A stretch of DNA of 47,449 nucleotides from Natrinema gari JCM 14663 (GTDB lineage Archaea > Halobacteriota > Halobacteria > Halobacteriales > Natrialbaceae), in NCBI RefSeq assembly GCF_000337175.1, contig NZ_AOIJ01000060.1, forward strand, positions 1 through 47,449, given 5' to 3'. Shown here in pieces: positions 8,998-44,395 of the stretch; position 1 is the stretch's first letter, and every line of letters starts with the position of its first letter. Below the pieces are notes generated by a model, which saw only the letters and a list, made by a program, of their open reading frames with translations, was not told the origin of the DNA and did no database searches. The translations under genes and the position numbers were made by a program.

Positions 8998-10233
8998 TTA
9001 CCGTTCGTCGGTAGCAGCCCTGAGCCGCTCGATCCGTTTCTCGGTCGGTGGATGCGTCCCGAAAACTATGCGATAGACGAATCGCCGCGGTCTATCGAAA
9101 ACCCGCCGCTCCTCCCACGGCCGGGGGACGATCGAGAACGCGGCCACGGTGTGACGCTCGGATAGTTCGTCGTCGAACCGTCGCTCGCGGGCCCGCTCGA
9201 GCGTCTCGAGTGCACTCGCGAGCGACGCGGGATCGACCATGAGCGCGGTGGCACGGTCGTCGGCGACGCACTCGCGATGACGAGCGACGACGCTCACACA
9301 CCACCGGAATACGCCCTCCACCACCAATGGGATAGGACAGCAAATAGCAACAGCAGCACGTCGGTATCGTGCGAAAAACGCCTCCAGTTTCGCCGCCGGA
9401 ACCGAGATTGCCGAGCAGACAGTGGCGTCACGGCTCGCAACGTGTGCGAGTTCGTGGGCGAGAACGGCTTCGAGTTCGCGGTCGTCGAGGGTCTCGAGGA
9501 GTCCACGAGAGACGACGATCGTCGACGCGGCCGGCCGGTAGCCGACTGTCAGTGTCATCGGTCGTTTGATCTCGGCAATCCTGACGTTCGGTGTCGGAAC
9601 GCCTGCAGTACCAGCCAATCGCCCGACACGCCGCTGAAGGTCCGTTTGATCCGATTCGCAGGTCTCGTCGGTATCGGGAATCGATTCCTCGAGGAGTCGG
9701 AGCACCGCTGGCGTGCCGGACAGTTCGGTTCGGATAGACGATCCGACGTACGTGCCGACAGCCAAGACACTCAGGATGGCCGGAAACGCCAACACCGAAT
9801 CGGCATCCGGCTCGAGGTGGACGGTCTTCCCGAGCCAGAATCCCCCGAGAGCGACCACGGCAACGCCGCCGACTCCGAGGACGATTCCGTGAGCTCCGAT
9901 CCGGTCACGGACCGTGGTATACGTGACCCGGAGTTCGGCGGCGATCACGTCGGGCTCGAACACGAGATCGGGTGCAGATGCGACTCGAATCGCGTGAGAG
10001 CCGATGACCAAGAGACAGCAAACGAGCCCGACGCCGGTGCTGAGCACGGCAATCGAAACCGGATGAAGATCGGCGAGCAACACAGTGAGACCGAGGGTCG
10101 TGACGAGAGCCGCTAGAAGAAAGACACCGATGACGGCGACAGCGATCACGAGTACGACCAACAGCGCTACGATCCCGCTCGCGACGAGCAGTCGAGTCCA
10201 GTATCCGACTCGAGAGAGTGAGCGGTCGCACAT
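8998..10233 (-). CDS. M48 family metalloprotease with N-terminal membrane segments
   Basis: A 411-residue membrane-bound zinc protease of the M48 (HtpX/Ste24) clan. The N-terminal third has several hydrophobic segments (YWTRLLVASGIVALLVVLVI, then two more pairs). The zinc motif HELAH is at residues 260-264 in AVLAHELAHVASRD. The third ligand is probably the Glu of RHRECVADDRA. It ends with the M48 signature THPPTEKRIERL. ATG 10233 is chosen over 10299 because the extra 22 residues are low in acidic residues and lie over an AT-rich promoter-like stretch (10268-10288). A decayed paralogue lies directly upstream on the same strand, suggesting tandem duplication. Confidence 0.85.
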   Translation of the reverse strand: MCDRSLSRVGYWTRLLVASGIVALLVVLVIAVAVIGVFLLAALVTTLGLTVLLADLHPVSIAVLSTGVGLVCCLLVIGSHAIRVASAPDLVFEPDVIAAELRVTYTTVRDRIGAHGIVLGVGGVAVVALGGFWLGKTVHLEPDADSVLAFPAILSVLAVGTYVGSSIRTELSGTPAVLRLLEESIPDTDETCESDQTDLQRRVGRLAGTAGVPTPNVRIAEIKRPMTLTVGYRPAASTIVVSRGLLETLDDRELEAVLAHELAHVASRDATVCSAISVPAAKLEAFFARYRRAAVAICCPIPLVVEGVFRWCVSVVARHRECVADDRATALMVDPASLASALETLERARERRFDDELSERHTVAAFSIVPRPWEERRVFDRPRRFVYRIVFGTHPPTEKRIERLRAATDER

Positions 10234-10326
10234 CGCGTATCCGTTGGGATTGTTCGACCTTCTCGGATGCAGTATAAAAAGATTTTTTATTGTCAGCATG
10301 TCTCCGACCCAACCAACTGCGATCGA

Positions 10327-11011
10327 TCACCCGCCGATCGGTTCCCGAAGTCGGCCGATCCGCTTCTCGGTCAGCGGATGTGTTTTGAACATCTACCGAG
10401 CGATGACCCGCCGGGTCCGGTGGCAAAAGCGGTGCTCCTCCCACGGCGGCGGGACGATCGAGAACGCCGCCGCAGAGCGGTGTTCGCGCAAATCGCTTGA
10501 GGGACGACACTCGAGGTCGCGATCGAGCATCTCGGTTTGTGAGACGTGCGAATTCGTGAGCGAGGACGGCATTGAGTTCACGATCTGGCAGGAGTTCGAC
10601 GAGCCTCTGTGAGATGACGATCGTCGAGATCGACGGACGAGAGCCAACGGTTGCGGCGGTCGGAGTTGTCGTCGCACTAATTCGAACGGTCGGCGACGGG
10701 AGCCCGGCCTGTTGTATGAGCCGATCGACCCGCGTCTGCACTGGCTCCCGGTCGACGACGATCCCGGCCGCGAGTAGCCGGCGGAGGACGACCGCGAGAG
10801 ACCACCGGCAGACGACGGTGACGATGCCGACCAGCGAGAGCAGCACCGCAACGGCGAGCACGGTCTCGGCCGCCATTACGAGGAGCAACACCATGAGACT
10901 GGCGAGGACGAACTCGACTGCCAGCAGGATGCTCTGACTGATGATCGCGACACTGCAGGCGACGACCAGTCGGATCCAGAGCCCGACTCGAATGGGCAGC
11001 AGACGTCTCAT
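10327..11011 (-). pseudogene. Decayed M48 protease paralogue
   Basis: The first 170 or so residues (from ATG 11011) align by eye with the intact M48 protease downstream, through membrane segments and AVLAHEFARLTNRD. The zinc motif is HEFAR, so the second His is lost. After that point about 100 residues, including the third ligand region, are deleted and the frame shifts. The end of the family continues in another frame: AAAFSIVPPPWEEHR, then a TAG stop, then THPLTEKRIGRL and a TGA at 10327-10329. Three independent lesions make function very unlikely. The open frame reading on to 9905 is an artefact of the shift. Confidence 0.85.
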
Positions 11012-12818: not shown

Positions 12819-13002
12819 GGCTGGTACTGTCGCATACGTCTACGGTGAGCGCGTAAAAACTTGCTGAGATGGCTCCTGCCGTGTCACCACTCCACGACCG
12901 CGGTCGATGGGATATCAGACACATGACACTCGAAGGCGGAATCAGTGTTCGTTGGACGAACAGTCCGATATTCTCTTAACGTCGCACCTATTAGCTGACT
13001 TA

Positions 13003-13443
13003 ATGGCAGTCGAAGCTACGAGCGCAGGCGCGATCCTCTTCCGCGATACGCGGGGCCGGCGCGAGTATCTTCTACTCAAGAGCCGCCCAGGCGATTGGGA
13101 GTTCCCCAAGGGCGGTGTCGAAGGAGATGAAGAACTACAGCAGACGGCGATCCGCGAAGTAACGGAAGAGGCAGGTATCGAACAGTTCCGACTACTCGAC
13201 GGCTTTCGCAAGGACTACGACTACGTCTTCGAGGCGAACGGCAAGACGATCCACAAGACCGTTCATCTCTTCATCGCGAAGTCGTTCGAGGCCAGCGCGG
13301 AACTCTCAAACGAACATCGCGACCTCCAGTGGCGCGATTACGAACAGGCGGTCAACACCGTCACGCAGGACGGCCCCCGGGAGATCCTTGAGGACGCCCA
13401 CGAATTCCTCGACGAACTCGAGGAGGAGGACGACGAAGCGTAG
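13003..13443 (+). CDS. Nudix hydrolase, Ap4A hydrolase-like
   Basis: A 146-residue Nudix hydrolase, closest in pattern to asymmetric diadenosine tetraphosphatases that clear Ap4A and related nucleotides. The Nudix box matches GX5EX7REUXEEXGU exactly: GGVEGDEELQQTAIREVTEE plus AGI. The preceding LLLKSRPGDWEFPKG is typical of the Ap4A group. ATG 13003 is chosen over an in-frame start at 12907 because the family begins with VEATSAGAILFR and the earlier codons look non-coding. The C-terminus is a run of acidic residues. It is divergent from the uS10 paralogue gene. Confidence 0.88.
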   Translation: MAVEATSAGAILFRDTRGRREYLLLKSRPGDWEFPKGGVEGDEELQQTAIREVTEEAGIEQFRLLDGFRKDYDYVFEANGKTIHKTVHLFIAKSFEASAELSNEHRDLQWRDYEQAVNTVTQDGPREILEDAHEFLDELEEEDDEA

Positions 13444-13626: not shown

Positions 13627-14679
13627 GTGGACCCACACACTGCCGAGTTCGGGTTCGAGCTCCGAACCTGTCGGTGGGCCGAACGCGAGTGGCCGCCGGG
13701 AGCGGACCCCGCCGACGATAGCCACGCGATCGTCGTCGCCCGCCAACTCGGGACGAAGCGCCGCCTCTGGGATACCATCGTCCTCGAGTGCGACCCCGAG
13801 GGCCTGCGTCGCCGCGCTCGGTTCGGCCCCGGCCGCCTCGATAGCGACCTCCTGCACGTCGTCCGAAACGCCCCCGCGGAGTGGTGCTACTATCGTGACG
13901 CGCTTCCGGACCCCGGCTACCCGTGGCGGTACGTCCGCGAGTCGATCCACCGTGCCGACGACCGTGGCATCCTCGAGACCCGCAAGAACGGCACCCGCAT
14001 CGAGATCAGGCGCAAGTGGGTCTATCCGGACTGGCTCGAGCGGATCGTCGCGATCGAGAACAAGCCCGACTTAGACGCCAGCGCCGCCCGCACGCTCGCC
14101 TCGCAACTCGAGTACGACGTCGCCGTCGGGCTGGCCGACGCAGTCTGGGTCGCGACCGAGATGACGAGCGAGCGCGTCCAACCCGCCCTTTTCGAGGACC
14201 TGCCGATCGAAGCGGGCATCCTCGCGCTCGCGCCCGACGAGCTGACCGCCGAGGTCGCGTGGCACCCCCGCTCGCTCGCGGTCGACGAGCCGGGGACTCG
14301 CATCCTCGAGCAGCCGGCCGGCGGCGAGCGCGACGACTCCGCCGCCCGCTTCGAGTACGCCGACCCCAACTGGAAAGCCGACAAACGGCTCGGGATCGCC
14401 GAGCGCGCCTACGAACGCGGCTGGCGCTCGTTCGCCGACACGATGCGTCCCGACTGTCGTCACTTCCAGTTGCGCGCTCGAGACGCAACACAGGCGCTGC
14501 CGTACTGCGCCGCTATGGGCCGGTGCCAGACGGCCGCCGAGTGTGCCGGCTCCTGTGACGAGTTCGAACCCGAGCCACCGCTCTGGCGTACCCGCGGCTG
14601 GCCGATCGACGGCGGTCCCGGAAAACGGCTCCAGCAACTCCTTGCGGATCGTCGGCGGCGACGGCGGCCGGGGCTATAG
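13627..14679 (+). CDS. DUF5787-like protein, putative PD-(D/E)XK nuclease with Cys cluster
   Basis: A 350-residue protein I recognise as a haloarchaeal uncharacterised family (recalled as DUF5787). The GTG start at 13627 is the first codon before ELRTCRW. By eye it has a nuclease-like core: Pro134-Asp135, then Glu144-Asn145-Lys146 in IVAIENKPD, then QLEY (160-163) and a strand ending ADAVWVATE. Cys15 near the N-terminus and a C-terminal cluster (Cys294, Cys300, Cys306, Cys310, with Cys277 before it) resemble the iron-sulfur cysteines of Cas4/Dna2/AddB nucleases. If correct, it would be a DNA-processing enzyme. It converges with the DUF5797 gene. The family is known only as a DUF; the nuclease reading is inference. 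Confidence 0.7.
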   Translation: MDPHTAEFGFELRTCRWAEREWPPGADPADDSHAIVVARQLGTKRRLWDTIVLECDPEGLRRRARFGPGRLDSDLLHVVRNAPAEWCYYRDALPDPGYPWRYVRESIHRADDRGILETRKNGTRIEIRRKWVYPDWLERIVAIENKPDLDASAARTLASQLEYDVAVGLADAVWVATEMTSERVQPALFEDLPIEAGILALAPDELTAEVAWHPRSLAVDEPGTRILEQPAGGERDDSAARFEYADPNWKADKRLGIAERAYERGWRSFADTMRPDCRHFQLRARDATQALPYCAAMGRCQTAAECAGSCDEFEPEPPLWRTRGWPIDGGPGKRLQQLLADRRRRRRPGL

Positions 14680-14695: not shown

Positions 14696-15199
14696 TCAGT
14701 CCGAGACGGCGACCTCGAGCTCCTCGCGCTCGACCGTCAGCCGGAACGTGGGGACGGTGCGGTACTCGACCTCGACGACGCCCTTCCGACGCAGACTCTG
14801 GAGCCCCGACCGGACGGCCTCGGCCTCGGGATCGACATCGTATTCCTCCCGGAGTTTGTGGAGCACCGAAACGACGCTCTCGGTGCGGTCCGTCGGCCCC
14901 GCCACCACCGCGACGATTTGCGCCTGTAACTCGGGCACGCGGATCTTGGAGGGGGTGCCGTCACCCTCGGGATCGCTCTCGATGCCCGGCTCGACGTCGA
15001 CCAGATCGGCCGCCTCCGCGGTCGCACGGATCAGGCTGTTGTCGTCCCGGAAGTAGTAGTCGCCGAGTTCGTCCTCGAGGTACTGGTGGACCTCGCTGCC
15101 GCTTTCCATCCCCCACCGCTCCTGGAGTTCGGAGTTCTTCGTCGGCTGTAGCTCCACCACGTCCGCCAACCGGTCCTGGGCCGCCTCCGAGAGCGTCAT
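14696..15199 (-). CDS. DUF5797 family protein, likely winged-helix regulator
   Basis: A 167-residue haloarchaeal protein, recalled as DUF5797. It begins TLSEAAQDRLADVVELQPTK, with ELQERWGMESGSEVHQYLE following. Two halves each look like small helical domains that could be winged helices: residues 1-65, and about 95-155 with VVSVLHKLREEYDV, LQSLRRKGVVEVEY and a strand pair. This suggests a transcription factor or nucleic-acid-binding role, which is inference. ATG 15199 is chosen because the upstream in-frame sequence to 15334 is Arg/Ser-rich and non-coding in style. It lies 131 bp downstream of the MFS transporter start-to-stop unit's end on the same genomic side but is read in the same direction as it. 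Confidence 0.7.
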   Translation of the reverse strand: MTLSEAAQDRLADVVELQPTKNSELQERWGMESGSEVHQYLEDELGDYYFRDDNSLIRATAEAADLVDVEPGIESDPEGDGTPSKIRVPELQAQIVAVVAGPTDRTESVVSVLHKLREEYDVDPEAEAVRSGLQSLRRKGVVEVEYRTVPTFRLTVEREELEVAVSD

Positions 15200-15330
15200 C
15201 GTCGAACCGTATGGGGATCCGGTACTTTTGCGTTGCGTCCCGCCGCGGGCCCGGCTCTCGTCGCCCCGACTCACTCGGTCGAACGGATCCGTAACGGGCC
15301 AGTCGGCCGTTGACGAACGGTTCCGACCGT

Positions 15331-16620
15331 TCACTCGCTTCCGACGACCGGCAGCGATCCCGTCGTCTCGAGCGTCTCTTCGACCTGCGTATAGACGAGT
15401 CCCGTCCCGATCACTGCGAGCGCGGTCCCGAAGAGGAACGGCATCTCGAAGCCGAACCCCACCAGCGCACCCGAGGAGAGCGGCCCGACGGCGATGCCGT
15501 AGCCGAAGGCCATCGTGAGCACCGACAGCTTCGATCCCGACTCCCCCTCGCCGGCGAGATCGCCGGCCAGCGCGAGCGACGGGGCAAACACCATCGCAGC
15601 GGCCACTCCCTGGAACAGCCGGGCGACGAACATCAACGACGAGGAGAAGAGAAAGCCCTGCACGAGCGTCGTCGGGATCAACAACGCCATCCCGGCCACG
15701 ATGAACGGGCGGCGGCCGTACCGATCACAGGCGCGCCCGATCGGCGTCTGGAGCGCGACCTGTGCGATGATAAACGCCGCGAACTGCAGGCCGAACCAGG
15801 TCGCCCCCTGCTCGAGGCGGGCGTTGACCTGCGGTTGGATGGTTGCGAACATCGCGATCGCGGTCGCCATGAACAGCGACGCGACGCCGAGCGTGAAGAT
15901 AGGGTCGAGTAGCGTGGGCCCCGACCGGTCGAAGACCGGAACCGAGAGGTCCGCGCCGGCGTTGGCCACCGTCGACGCGGGATCGGAAACGAGGACCGTC
16001 ACCATCACGTAGCTGATCGTCGCGGTGATGGTCGCGACGTAGAAGGCTGCCTCGAACCCGTCGACCGCCAGTCCGCCCGGGAGCGCGTACGGACCGCGAC
16101 TCACGACTGCGCCGGCCATCGCCGGACCGGCACCGAACCCGACCAGCCGGAACGTGTTGTAGACGCCCATGTTCCCGCCGCGGTCGCCGGCCGTCGCGAG
16201 TTCGTTCACGAGCGCGATCGACGCCGGGACGATAAAGGCGACGCTGACGCCTTGCAGTCCACGGATAACCAGGAGGGAGACGTACGTCTCCGCGACGACG
16301 TAGGCGACGTTGGTCAGGGCCAAACCGGCGAGGCCAACCAGAATAAACGGCTTGCGTCGGCCGAGTCGATCCGATAGCTGGCCGGTAAACGGCTGACAGC
16401 TGCTGTTGAGAAACCCGAACAGCGAAAGGATCACTCCGATGAGCATCGACTCGTCGAGCCCGAACGTCGTCCCGTCGACGACGCCGCTTGTCACGTACAG
16501 CGGAATGACGATGATCAGAAACGAGTTCCCAATCCCGTCCGCCATTCGAGCACCCGCGAGCGCGAGCACCCGCCGATCGACGACAAATGGTGCCACGATC
16601 CGATCGACGATGCCTCGCAT
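15331..16620 (-). CDS. MFS transporter
   Basis: A 429-residue major facilitator superfamily permease with about twelve membrane segments. The loop after the second helix has the MFS signature GQLSDRLGRRKPFILVG, and its pseudo-repeat in the C-terminal half is IGRACDRYGRRPFIVAG. The substrate is unknown; drug-efflux-type and sugar-type families both look like this. The start at ATG 16620 follows a TATA-like ACTATAATC (about 16645-16655) at the correct distance. The DUF5797 gene follows in the same direction 131 bp downstream. Confidence 0.88.
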   Translation of the reverse strand: MRGIVDRIVAPFVVDRRVLALAGARMADGIGNSFLIIVIPLYVTSGVVDGTTFGLDESMLIGVILSLFGFLNSSCQPFTGQLSDRLGRRKPFILVGLAGLALTNVAYVVAETYVSLLVIRGLQGVSVAFIVPASIALVNELATAGDRGGNMGVYNTFRLVGFGAGPAMAGAVVSRGPYALPGGLAVDGFEAAFYVATITATISYVMVTVLVSDPASTVANAGADLSVPVFDRSGPTLLDPIFTLGVASLFMATAIAMFATIQPQVNARLEQGATWFGLQFAAFIIAQVALQTPIGRACDRYGRRPFIVAGMALLIPTTLVQGFLFSSSLMFVARLFQGVAAAMVFAPSLALAGDLAGEGESGSKLSVLTMAFGYGIAVGPLSSGALVGFGFEMPFLFGTALAVIGTGLVYTQVEETLETTGSLPVVGSE

Positions 16621-42238: not shown

Positions 42239-44395
42239 ATGAGTAACGATACGAACGTTGACGACCCTCCCGAAGACGCCTCGGACACTGCTTCCGATGG
42301 GACCGACCCCGTCGAGCAGCCCGAGCGTCAGGGAGACCGGTCGCCGCTCGAGGAGGACGGTGACCGTCGCACCGACGTCGACGATCCGATCGACGAGTTC
42401 GAGCCGTCGTCCGACGAGGACGACGACATCGAGACCGTCGAGGACCTCGGGAGTACCGTCGAGGTCGATCCAGGCGTCGAGGTCGACGAGGAGATCGCCG
42501 AGGACGATCTGCTGGGCGGTCTGAAGATCGATTCGACCGAGGACATCGAAGTCCCCGATCGGCTCGTCGATCAGGTCATCGGCCAGGACGAAGCGCGAGA
42601 TATCATTATCAAGGCGGCGAAGCAGCGCCGGCACGTCATGATGATCGGTTCGCCGGGGACCGGCAAATCGATGCTGGCGAAGGCGATGAGCCAACTGCTT
42701 CCGAAGGAGGACCTTCAGGACGTCTTAGTCTATCACAATCCCGACGACGGCAACGAACCGAAGGTTCGAACCGTTCCTGCCGGAAAGGGAGAACAGATCA
42801 TCGACGCCCACAAGGAGGAGGCCCGCAAGCGCAACCAGATGCGCTCGATCCTGATGTGGATCATCATCGCCGTCGTTATCGGCTATACGCTTCTGGCAGG
42901 CGCAGAGCTCCTGCTTGGCATCCTCGCGGCGGGGCTCGTCTGGCTGATCTTCCGCTACACTTCCCGCGGGACCGATGCGATGGTGCCCAACATGATCGTC
43001 AACAACGGCGATCAGCGCGTCGCGCCCTTCGAGGACGCGACCGGTGCCCACGCCGGCGCACTGCTCGGTGACGTCCGCCACGATCCCTTCCAGTCCGGCG
43101 GCATGGAGACGCCGAGCCACGACCGCGTCGAACCGGGCGCGATCCACAAGTCCAACAAGGGCGTGCTGTTCGTCGACGAGATCAACACGCTCGACATCCG
43201 CACCCAGCAGAAGCTGATGACGGCCATCCAGGAAGGCGAGTTCGCCATCACGGGCCAGTCCGAGCGCTCCTCGGGCGCGATGGTCCAGACCGAACCCGTC
43301 CCCTGTGACTTCATCATGGTCGCCGCCGGGAACCTCGACGCCATGGAGAACATGCACCCCGCGCTCCGCAACCGGATCAAAGGGTACGGCTACGAGGTCT
43401 ACATGGACGACACCATCGAGGACACCCCCGAGATGCGGCGCAAGTACGCCCGCTTCATCGCCCAGGAGGTCGAGCGCGACGGCCGCCTGCCTCACTTCAC
43501 CGACGAAGCCGTCGAAGAACTCATCCTCGAGGCGAAACGCCGCTCGGGCCGCAAGAACCACCTCACGCTGCTGTTCCGCAGCCTCGGTGGGCTGGTCCGC
43601 GTCGCGGGCGACATCGCCCGCGCGGAGGATCGCGAGTACACCACCCGTGAGGATGTCTTGCAGGCGAAGAAACGCTCGCGCTCGATCGAGCAACAGCTCG
43701 CCGACGACTACATCGAGCGCCGCAAGGACTACGAGCTGCAGGTCAACGAGGGCGGCGTCGAGGGCCGCGTCAACGGCCTCGCCGTCATGGGCGAGGACTC
43801 GGGCATCATGCTACCGGTCATGGCCGAAATCGCCCCCGCACAGGGCGGCGGGCAGGTCATCGCCACCGGCAAACTGCAGGAGATGGCCGAGGAGTCGGTC
43901 CAGAACGTCTCCGCGATCATCAAGAAGTTCTCCGACGTCGATCTCTCGGAGAAGGACATCCACATCCAGTTCGTCCAGGCCGGCCAACAGGGTGTCGACG
44001 GCGACTCCGCTTCCATCACGGTCGCGACCGCCGTCATCTCGGCACTGGAGAACATCCCCGTCGACCAGTCGGTCGCGATGACCGGCTCGCTGTCGGTGCG
44101 GGGTGACGTCCTCCCGGTCGGTGGGGTCACCCACAAGATCGAGGCCGCCGCCAAGGCGGGCTGTACGAAGGTCATCATCCCTGAAGCGAACGAACAGGAC
44201 GTGATGATCGAAGAGGAGTACGAGGACATGATCGAGATCATCCCCTGTGCGAACATCAGCGAGGTCTTGGACGTCGCCCTGATGGGCGAGCCGAAGAAGG
44301 ACTCGCTGGTCGACCGTCTCAAGTCGATCACCGGGACGGCGTTCGATCAGGGCACCGTCGGCTCCGCCGGCGGGTCGAACCCGAGCCCGCAGTAA
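42239..44395 (+). CDS. lonB: ATP-dependent protease LonB
   Basis: Membrane-anchored archaeal Lon protease for regulated and quality-control proteolysis. The 718-residue protein has a long acidic N-terminus (1-100), Walker A GSPGTGKS (137-144), an insertion with two membrane helices (about 203-240) that anchors the AAA+ domain, Walker B GVLFVDEIN (about 308-316), and a protease domain with the catalytic dyad Ser590 in DGDSAS and Lys633 in GGVTHKIEAA. All key residues are present. The next gene starts on the base after the TAA stop (TAAATG), indicating co-expression. Confidence 0.97.
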   Translation: MSNDTNVDDPPEDASDTASDGTDPVEQPERQGDRSPLEEDGDRRTDVDDPIDEFEPSSDEDDDIETVEDLGSTVEVDPGVEVDEEIAEDDLLGGLKIDSTEDIEVPDRLVDQVIGQDEARDIIIKAAKQRRHVMMIGSPGTGKSMLAKAMSQLLPKEDLQDVLVYHNPDDGNEPKVRTVPAGKGEQIIDAHKEEARKRNQMRSILMWIIIAVVIGYTLLAGAELLLGILAAGLVWLIFRYTSRGTDAMVPNMIVNNGDQRVAPFEDATGAHAGALLGDVRHDPFQSGGMETPSHDRVEPGAIHKSNKGVLFVDEINTLDIRTQQKLMTAIQEGEFAITGQSERSSGAMVQTEPVPCDFIMVAAGNLDAMENMHPALRNRIKGYGYEVYMDDTIEDTPEMRRKYARFIAQEVERDGRLPHFTDEAVEELILEAKRRSGRKNHLTLLFRSLGGLVRVAGDIARAEDREYTTREDVLQAKKRSRSIEQQLADDYIERRKDYELQVNEGGVEGRVNGLAVMGEDSGIMLPVMAEIAPAQGGGQVIATGKLQEMAEESVQNVSAIIKKFSDVDLSEKDIHIQFVQAGQQGVDGDSASITVATAVISALENIPVDQSVAMTGSLSVRGDVLPVGGVTHKIEAAAKAGCTKVIIPEANEQDVMIEEEYEDMIEIIPCANISEVLDVALMGEPKKDSLVDRLKSITGTAFDQGTVGSAGGSNPSPQ

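Follow-up and report, generated by a model that had tools for sequence, protein, structure and literature searches.

The DUF5787 proteins of haloarchaea are, as predicted from their conserved residues and modelled fold, probably metal-dependent DNA nucleases built on a PD-(D/E)XK core. This best explanation rests on conservation, on the order of the elements in the predicted fold, on a gene duplication and on a PIP-box-like tail in one of the two resulting paralogues; from these we infer catalysis, the binding of DNA and of PCNA, the metal and the pathway. The family member analysed here is encoded in a 47,449-nucleotide stretch of the Natrinema gari JCM 14663 genome (contig NZ_AOIJ01000060.1; the window), and the coordinates of its features are given in Table 1.

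Table 1. Features of the DUF5787 gene in the window and of its conserved neighbours.
Feature	Position	Strand	Evidence
NUDIX hydrolase (PF00293), conserved upstream neighbour of A	12907-13443	+	16/20 divergent A loci, same strand
Gene for DUF5787 paralogue A (350 aa; starts with GTG)	13627-14679	+	Pfam match, kept GTG, third-position excess
Helix 1, residues 3-21: invariant Glu7, Glu11, Glu19; near-invariant Cys15 (13669-13671)	13645-13683	+	Alignment, AlphaFold2
Strands 1 and 2: invariant Arg39-Gln40, Arg46, Asp49 (13771-13773)	13741-13773	+	85/85; Asp 103/103 in B; strand 47-55
Winged-helix-like insertion, residues 57-130, separating the Asp and ExK strands	13795-14016	+	AlphaFold2 secondary structure, pLDDT above 90
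Y133-P-x-W136 motif, containing the non-conserved Asp135	14023-14034	+	Alignment
ExK motif (Glu144-Asn-Lys146), where strand 137-145 ends	14056-14064	+	85/85; AlphaFold2
Gln160-x3-Asp164 on helix 151-167; RecB motif-IV-like Gln, Tyr163 variable	14104-14118	+	Alignment, AlphaFold2
C-terminal Cys4 module, C-x16-C-x11-C-x3-C, putative Zn or Fe-S site	14455-14556	+	85/85, alignment
DUF5797 gene (PF19110), convergent conserved neighbour of A	14696-15334	-	17/20 A loci

The DUF5787 gene and its distribution

The open reading frame is present exactly as described in the original prediction (350 residues with a GTG start), and its identity as a DUF5787 protein was borne out by a match to Pfam PF19100 over residues 36-315 (E = 4.8e-122). 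Relative to a 91% identical orthologue, 15, 16 and 57 DNA changes fall at codon positions 1, 2 and 3, respectively, and this excess at the third position indicates that the frame is a real gene. The GTG start is retained by nearly all orthologues of the protein.

Of the 391 class genomes, 387 contain a relative of the query (375 of the 377 good genomes), and the four genomes without a DUF5787 match come from two families with small genomes. All 80 haloarchaeal genomes matched by the Pfam profile have two or more copies; the family is also present in a control genome, that of Haloferax volcanii. Beyond the haloarchaea the sole match at E <= 0.001 was discarded because the aligned part belongs to methionyl-tRNA synthetase, in its zinc-knuckle region. 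The viral contigs and phages searched contained no copy, and the plasmid collection contained one, on an 828-kb Natronorubrum replicon. Searches of NCBIfam, PADLOC and PHROGs gave no informative match, a sequence search of the PDB gave none with either the single protein or the profile, and the literature library searched contained no paper naming DUF5787 or PF19100 and yielded no biochemical or genetic data. Sequence and profile methods tie the family to no known nuclease.

Nearly every haloarchaeal genome encodes two DUF5787 paralogues: A, to which the window protein belongs, and B. The two groups are parted by a branch with a support of 1.0. Sampled members of each group span the haloarchaeal families, which indicates that the duplication is ancient and preceded the divergence of these families. 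Paralogue B of the source genome lies outside the window, at positions 9339-10334 of another contig, and carries the PIP-box-like tail described below; it is 93% identical to B of Natrinema altunense.

Conserved residues

Conservation was assessed in a main alignment of 85 homologues (62 A and 23 B; mean column identity of 45%) and in a larger set of 103 B proteins. The polar residues that are invariant across the 85 sequences include Glu7, Glu11, Glu19, Arg39, Gln40, Arg46, Asp49, Arg63, Tyr133, Glu144, Asn145, Lys146, Gln160, Asp164 and Asp171. The nuclease core had originally been placed at Asp135, Glu144 and Lys146. The latter two residues held, and together with Gln160 each is present in 85/85 sequences (62 A and 23 B). 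Asp135, however, is found in 50/62 A and 17/23 B proteins and is otherwise replaced by E, S, A, R or Q, and is therefore not the catalytic aspartate. Asp49 (85/85) is instead the likely catalytic Asp, judging from the alignment; this invariant acidic residue had been overlooked, as had Glu7, Glu11, Arg39, Gln40 and Arg46. In the larger B set, Asp39 (equivalent to Asp49 of A), Glu133, Lys135 and Gln147 are each present in 103/103 proteins.

The QxxY motif proposed for residues 160-163 did not survive the alignment. Gln160 is invariant, but Tyr163 is present in 31/62 A proteins and ranks below the leading residues in B, which are T, K, L and H, and the conserved pattern is Q160-x3-D164. Among the motif residues originally named, the Glu, Lys, Gln and four C-terminal Cys are thus invariant, while Asp135 as the catalytic Asp and Tyr163 as part of QxxY were both discarded because they are not conserved.

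Predicted fold

AlphaFold2 models of both paralogues were built on DUF5787 alignments (pLDDT of 88.4 and pTM of 0.87 for A; 92.1 and 0.90 for B). In the model of A, helix 3-21, which carries Glu7 and Glu11, is followed by strands 34-42 and 47-55, the second of which carries Asp49, and then by a third strand (137-145) with the Glu144-x-Lys146 motif, by helix 151-167 with Gln160 and by strand 172-178. The order helix-strand-strand(D)-[insert]-strand(ExK)-helix(Q)-strand recurs in the model of B. Judged by order along the chain, the predicted elements follow the alpha-beta-beta-beta-alpha-beta arrangement of a PD-(D/E)XK core, in which strand 2 bears the Asp and strand 3 the (D/E)xK.

The insertion, a helix-helix-hairpin segment that resembles a winged helix, comprises about 75 residues and is modelled as four helices (57-66, 73-81, 89-92 and 100-112) and two strands (116-121 and 124-129). 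The second-ranked PDB fold matches of A are winged-helix regulators, aligned over about 60-80 columns, and these presumably map to residues 57-130.

The PDB fold search gave no match at E <= 0.001. The sole nuclease with appreciable probability among the matches of A was the type IIS restriction enzyme PaqCI (probability of 0.84, E = 0.047), and there was none among those of B. The best matches in the viral library were MmcB-like DNA repair proteins (probability of 0.99-1.00, E of about 5e-4); these matches are weak in TM-score, which in this library does not exceed 0.30 for the query and 0.56 for the target. Herpesvirus UL24 proteins came far below, with low probability. We take the MmcB-like and UL24 proteins to be PD-(D/E)XK families.

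The MmcB-like family (PF06319), which comprises bacterial and phage DNA repair proteins with a PD-(D/E)XK-type core, is thus the best fold match of the DUF5787 model. Its profile, however, is unmatched by the 85 DUF5787 members, being absent from the 11 families hit at E <= 1, and had no match above the cut-off in 29 genomes of the class. The matched phage models, with 149-192 residues, are too short to accommodate the DUF5787 Cys4 domain and tail.

C-terminal cysteines

Cys277, Cys294, Cys306 and Cys310 are each present in 85/85 sequences (62 A and 23 B). The prediction of four to five C-terminal cysteines is therefore upheld for these four and not for the fifth, Cys300, which lies outside the invariant and nearly invariant columns. 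The N-terminal cysteine that had also been proposed, Cys15, is conserved in 84/85 sequences of the main alignment, including all A proteins, but its equivalent is missing from 7/103 proteins of the B set, among them those of Halonotius and Halorientalis. All seven retain the four C-terminal cysteines, and in one of them these are the sole cysteines of the protein. As Cys15 is dispensable in B and the C-terminal four are kept, the predicted metal site is most simply the C-terminal Cys4, and not a 1+3 staple as in Cas4, where one cysteine near the N-terminus and three near the C-terminus bind the cluster (PMC3466216).

A PIP-box-like tail in paralogue B

All 103 proteins of the B set end in Q-x-x-[LIMV]-x-x-[FWY], mostly as QSGLDRF. 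The motif is present in 0/62 A proteins, which have a basic tail, and in 0.4% of shuffled tails. The archaeal PIP motif is given as QXXhXXaa in a paper that also covers archaeal PCNA clients (PMC4929162). The consensus form of the B tail, QxGLDxF, is nearly identical to the tail of Fen1 from the source genome, which ends in VTQTGLDRWT. In the AlphaFold2 model the pLDDT of the B tail is below 50, which fits the expectation for a flexible PIP tail. The tail is the strongest functional clue that we have, and suggests that B is probably a PCNA-recruited nuclease. A likely role in DNA replication or repair is supported, and this feature of B strengthens it. The A/B pair with one PIP-like tail is new here.

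Two other archaeal systems share parts of this arrangement. NucS/EndoMS (PF01939), an archaeal RecB-type enzyme, resembles B in combining a nuclease-type core with a C-terminal PIP motif and acts with the clamp (PMC4929162). It differs in having an N-terminal OB/Sm-like domain and shows no profile similarity to DUF5787, in which the PIP-like tail is confined to B. The PCNA-binding repair factors NreA and NreB have a PIP tail, joined in many archaea by a Cys4 metal site, but they are unmatched by DUF5787 and haloarchaeal NreA lacks the Cys4 site (PMC4929162).

Proposed mechanism and alternative explanations

In the proposed mechanism, Mg2+ would be held by Asp49 and Glu144, to which Glu11 may be added, and Lys146 and Gln160 would position the scissile phosphate. 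The winged helix inside the core would grip duplex DNA beside the cut site, and the C-terminal Cys4, with Zn or a 4Fe-4S cluster, would stabilize the C-terminal domain. Paralogue B would reach sites of replication or repair via PCNA, through its C-terminal PIP box. Paralogue A, which lacks the PIP tail and has a basic one, would act alone or as the partner of B. More tentatively, A and B may be a haloarchaeal pair of structure-specific nucleases, each with a winged helix in the core and a Cys4 site and one delivered by PCNA, that serve a replication-coupled repair step to which no haloarchaeal enzyme has been assigned; A and B may do so as a heterodimer.

A more specific nuclease assignment was originally made, in which DUF5787 is a Cas4/AddB/Dna2-type enzyme with a RecB-type core and a 4Fe-4S staple formed by the N-terminal cysteine and three C-terminal ones. 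The ExK core, the Gln on the following helix and the cysteines near both ends of the chain, in matching order and with the N-terminal one nearly invariant, are shared with these enzymes. DUF5787 differs from them in that 75 inserted residues lie between its Asp and ExK, in the absence of QxxxY, and in the number and spacing of its cysteines: there are four invariant C-terminal cysteines rather than three, with spacings of x16, x11 and x3 compared with C-x2-C-x5-C in haloarchaeal Cas4, and the N-terminal cysteine can be lost in B, in one case leaving the C-terminal four alone. The 50 best PDB fold matches, for A as for B, include no Cas4, AddB or Dna2 structure. Comparison with the Cas4 and PDDEXK_1 profiles gave hhalign probabilities of 0.1-0.3%, whereas the control comparison of Cas4 with PDDEXK_1 gave 70% (E = 4e-5); with the insertion either kept or removed, there was no signal to Cas4, PDDEXK_1, Hjc or NucS. 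Three pairs of distantly related PD-(D/E)XK families that served as controls, Hjc-NucS, Cas4-NucS and Cas4-Hjc, likewise gave no signal, so that the negative result excludes closeness and not common ancestry. We therefore regard a Cas4/AddB/Dna2-type enzyme as highly improbable. The broader part of the proposal, a nuclease with a cysteine metal site, stands to the extent that a PD-(D/E)XK-type core and the cysteines are conserved family-wide.

Some PD-(D/E)XK relatives have lost catalysis, and DUF5787 could likewise be a non-catalytic DNA-binding scaffold, with the nuclease core a remnant and its function left to the winged helix and the PIP tail. Pseudo-enzymes, however, usually lose part of the active site, whereas Asp49, Glu144, Lys146 and Gln160 are invariant in both A and B, and we consider a scaffold unlikely. 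It is also conceivable, though very unlikely, that the nuclease acts on RNA or RNA:DNA hybrids and not on DNA. In most loci B is divergent from a cluster of aIF2-gamma, PIN-domain and RpoE-like genes, which would suit such a substrate. This cluster is, however, transcribed divergently, and its linkage to B may therefore carry no functional meaning; in addition, every B protein has the PCNA-type tail and A is located elsewhere.

A metal-dependent DNA nuclease is the reading that we prefer. Two copies of this unstudied family are kept in practically all haloarchaeal genomes, including that of the genetically tractable Haloferax volcanii. If B is indeed a PCNA-recruited nuclease, the haloarchaeal replication and repair toolkit has missed a core enzyme. 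The invariant residues and the PIP tail offer direct point mutants.

Neighbouring genes and other observations

The NUDIX hydrolase upstream of A is unusually conserved, with a mean identity of 88% across divergent haloarchaea. Its association with A, that of the DUF5797 gene and the neighbourhood of B are cases of linkage, and neither these nor the conservation of the loci proves a function.

Elsewhere in the window, two adjoining genes for M48 (HtpX-like) peptidases occupy positions 8998-11011 on the reverse strand. The second of these (9905-11011) has a partial family match and its frame seems to shift past the HEF.R motif, so that it looks like a decaying duplicate. A LonB-type archaeal protease is encoded at 42239-44395 on the forward strand.
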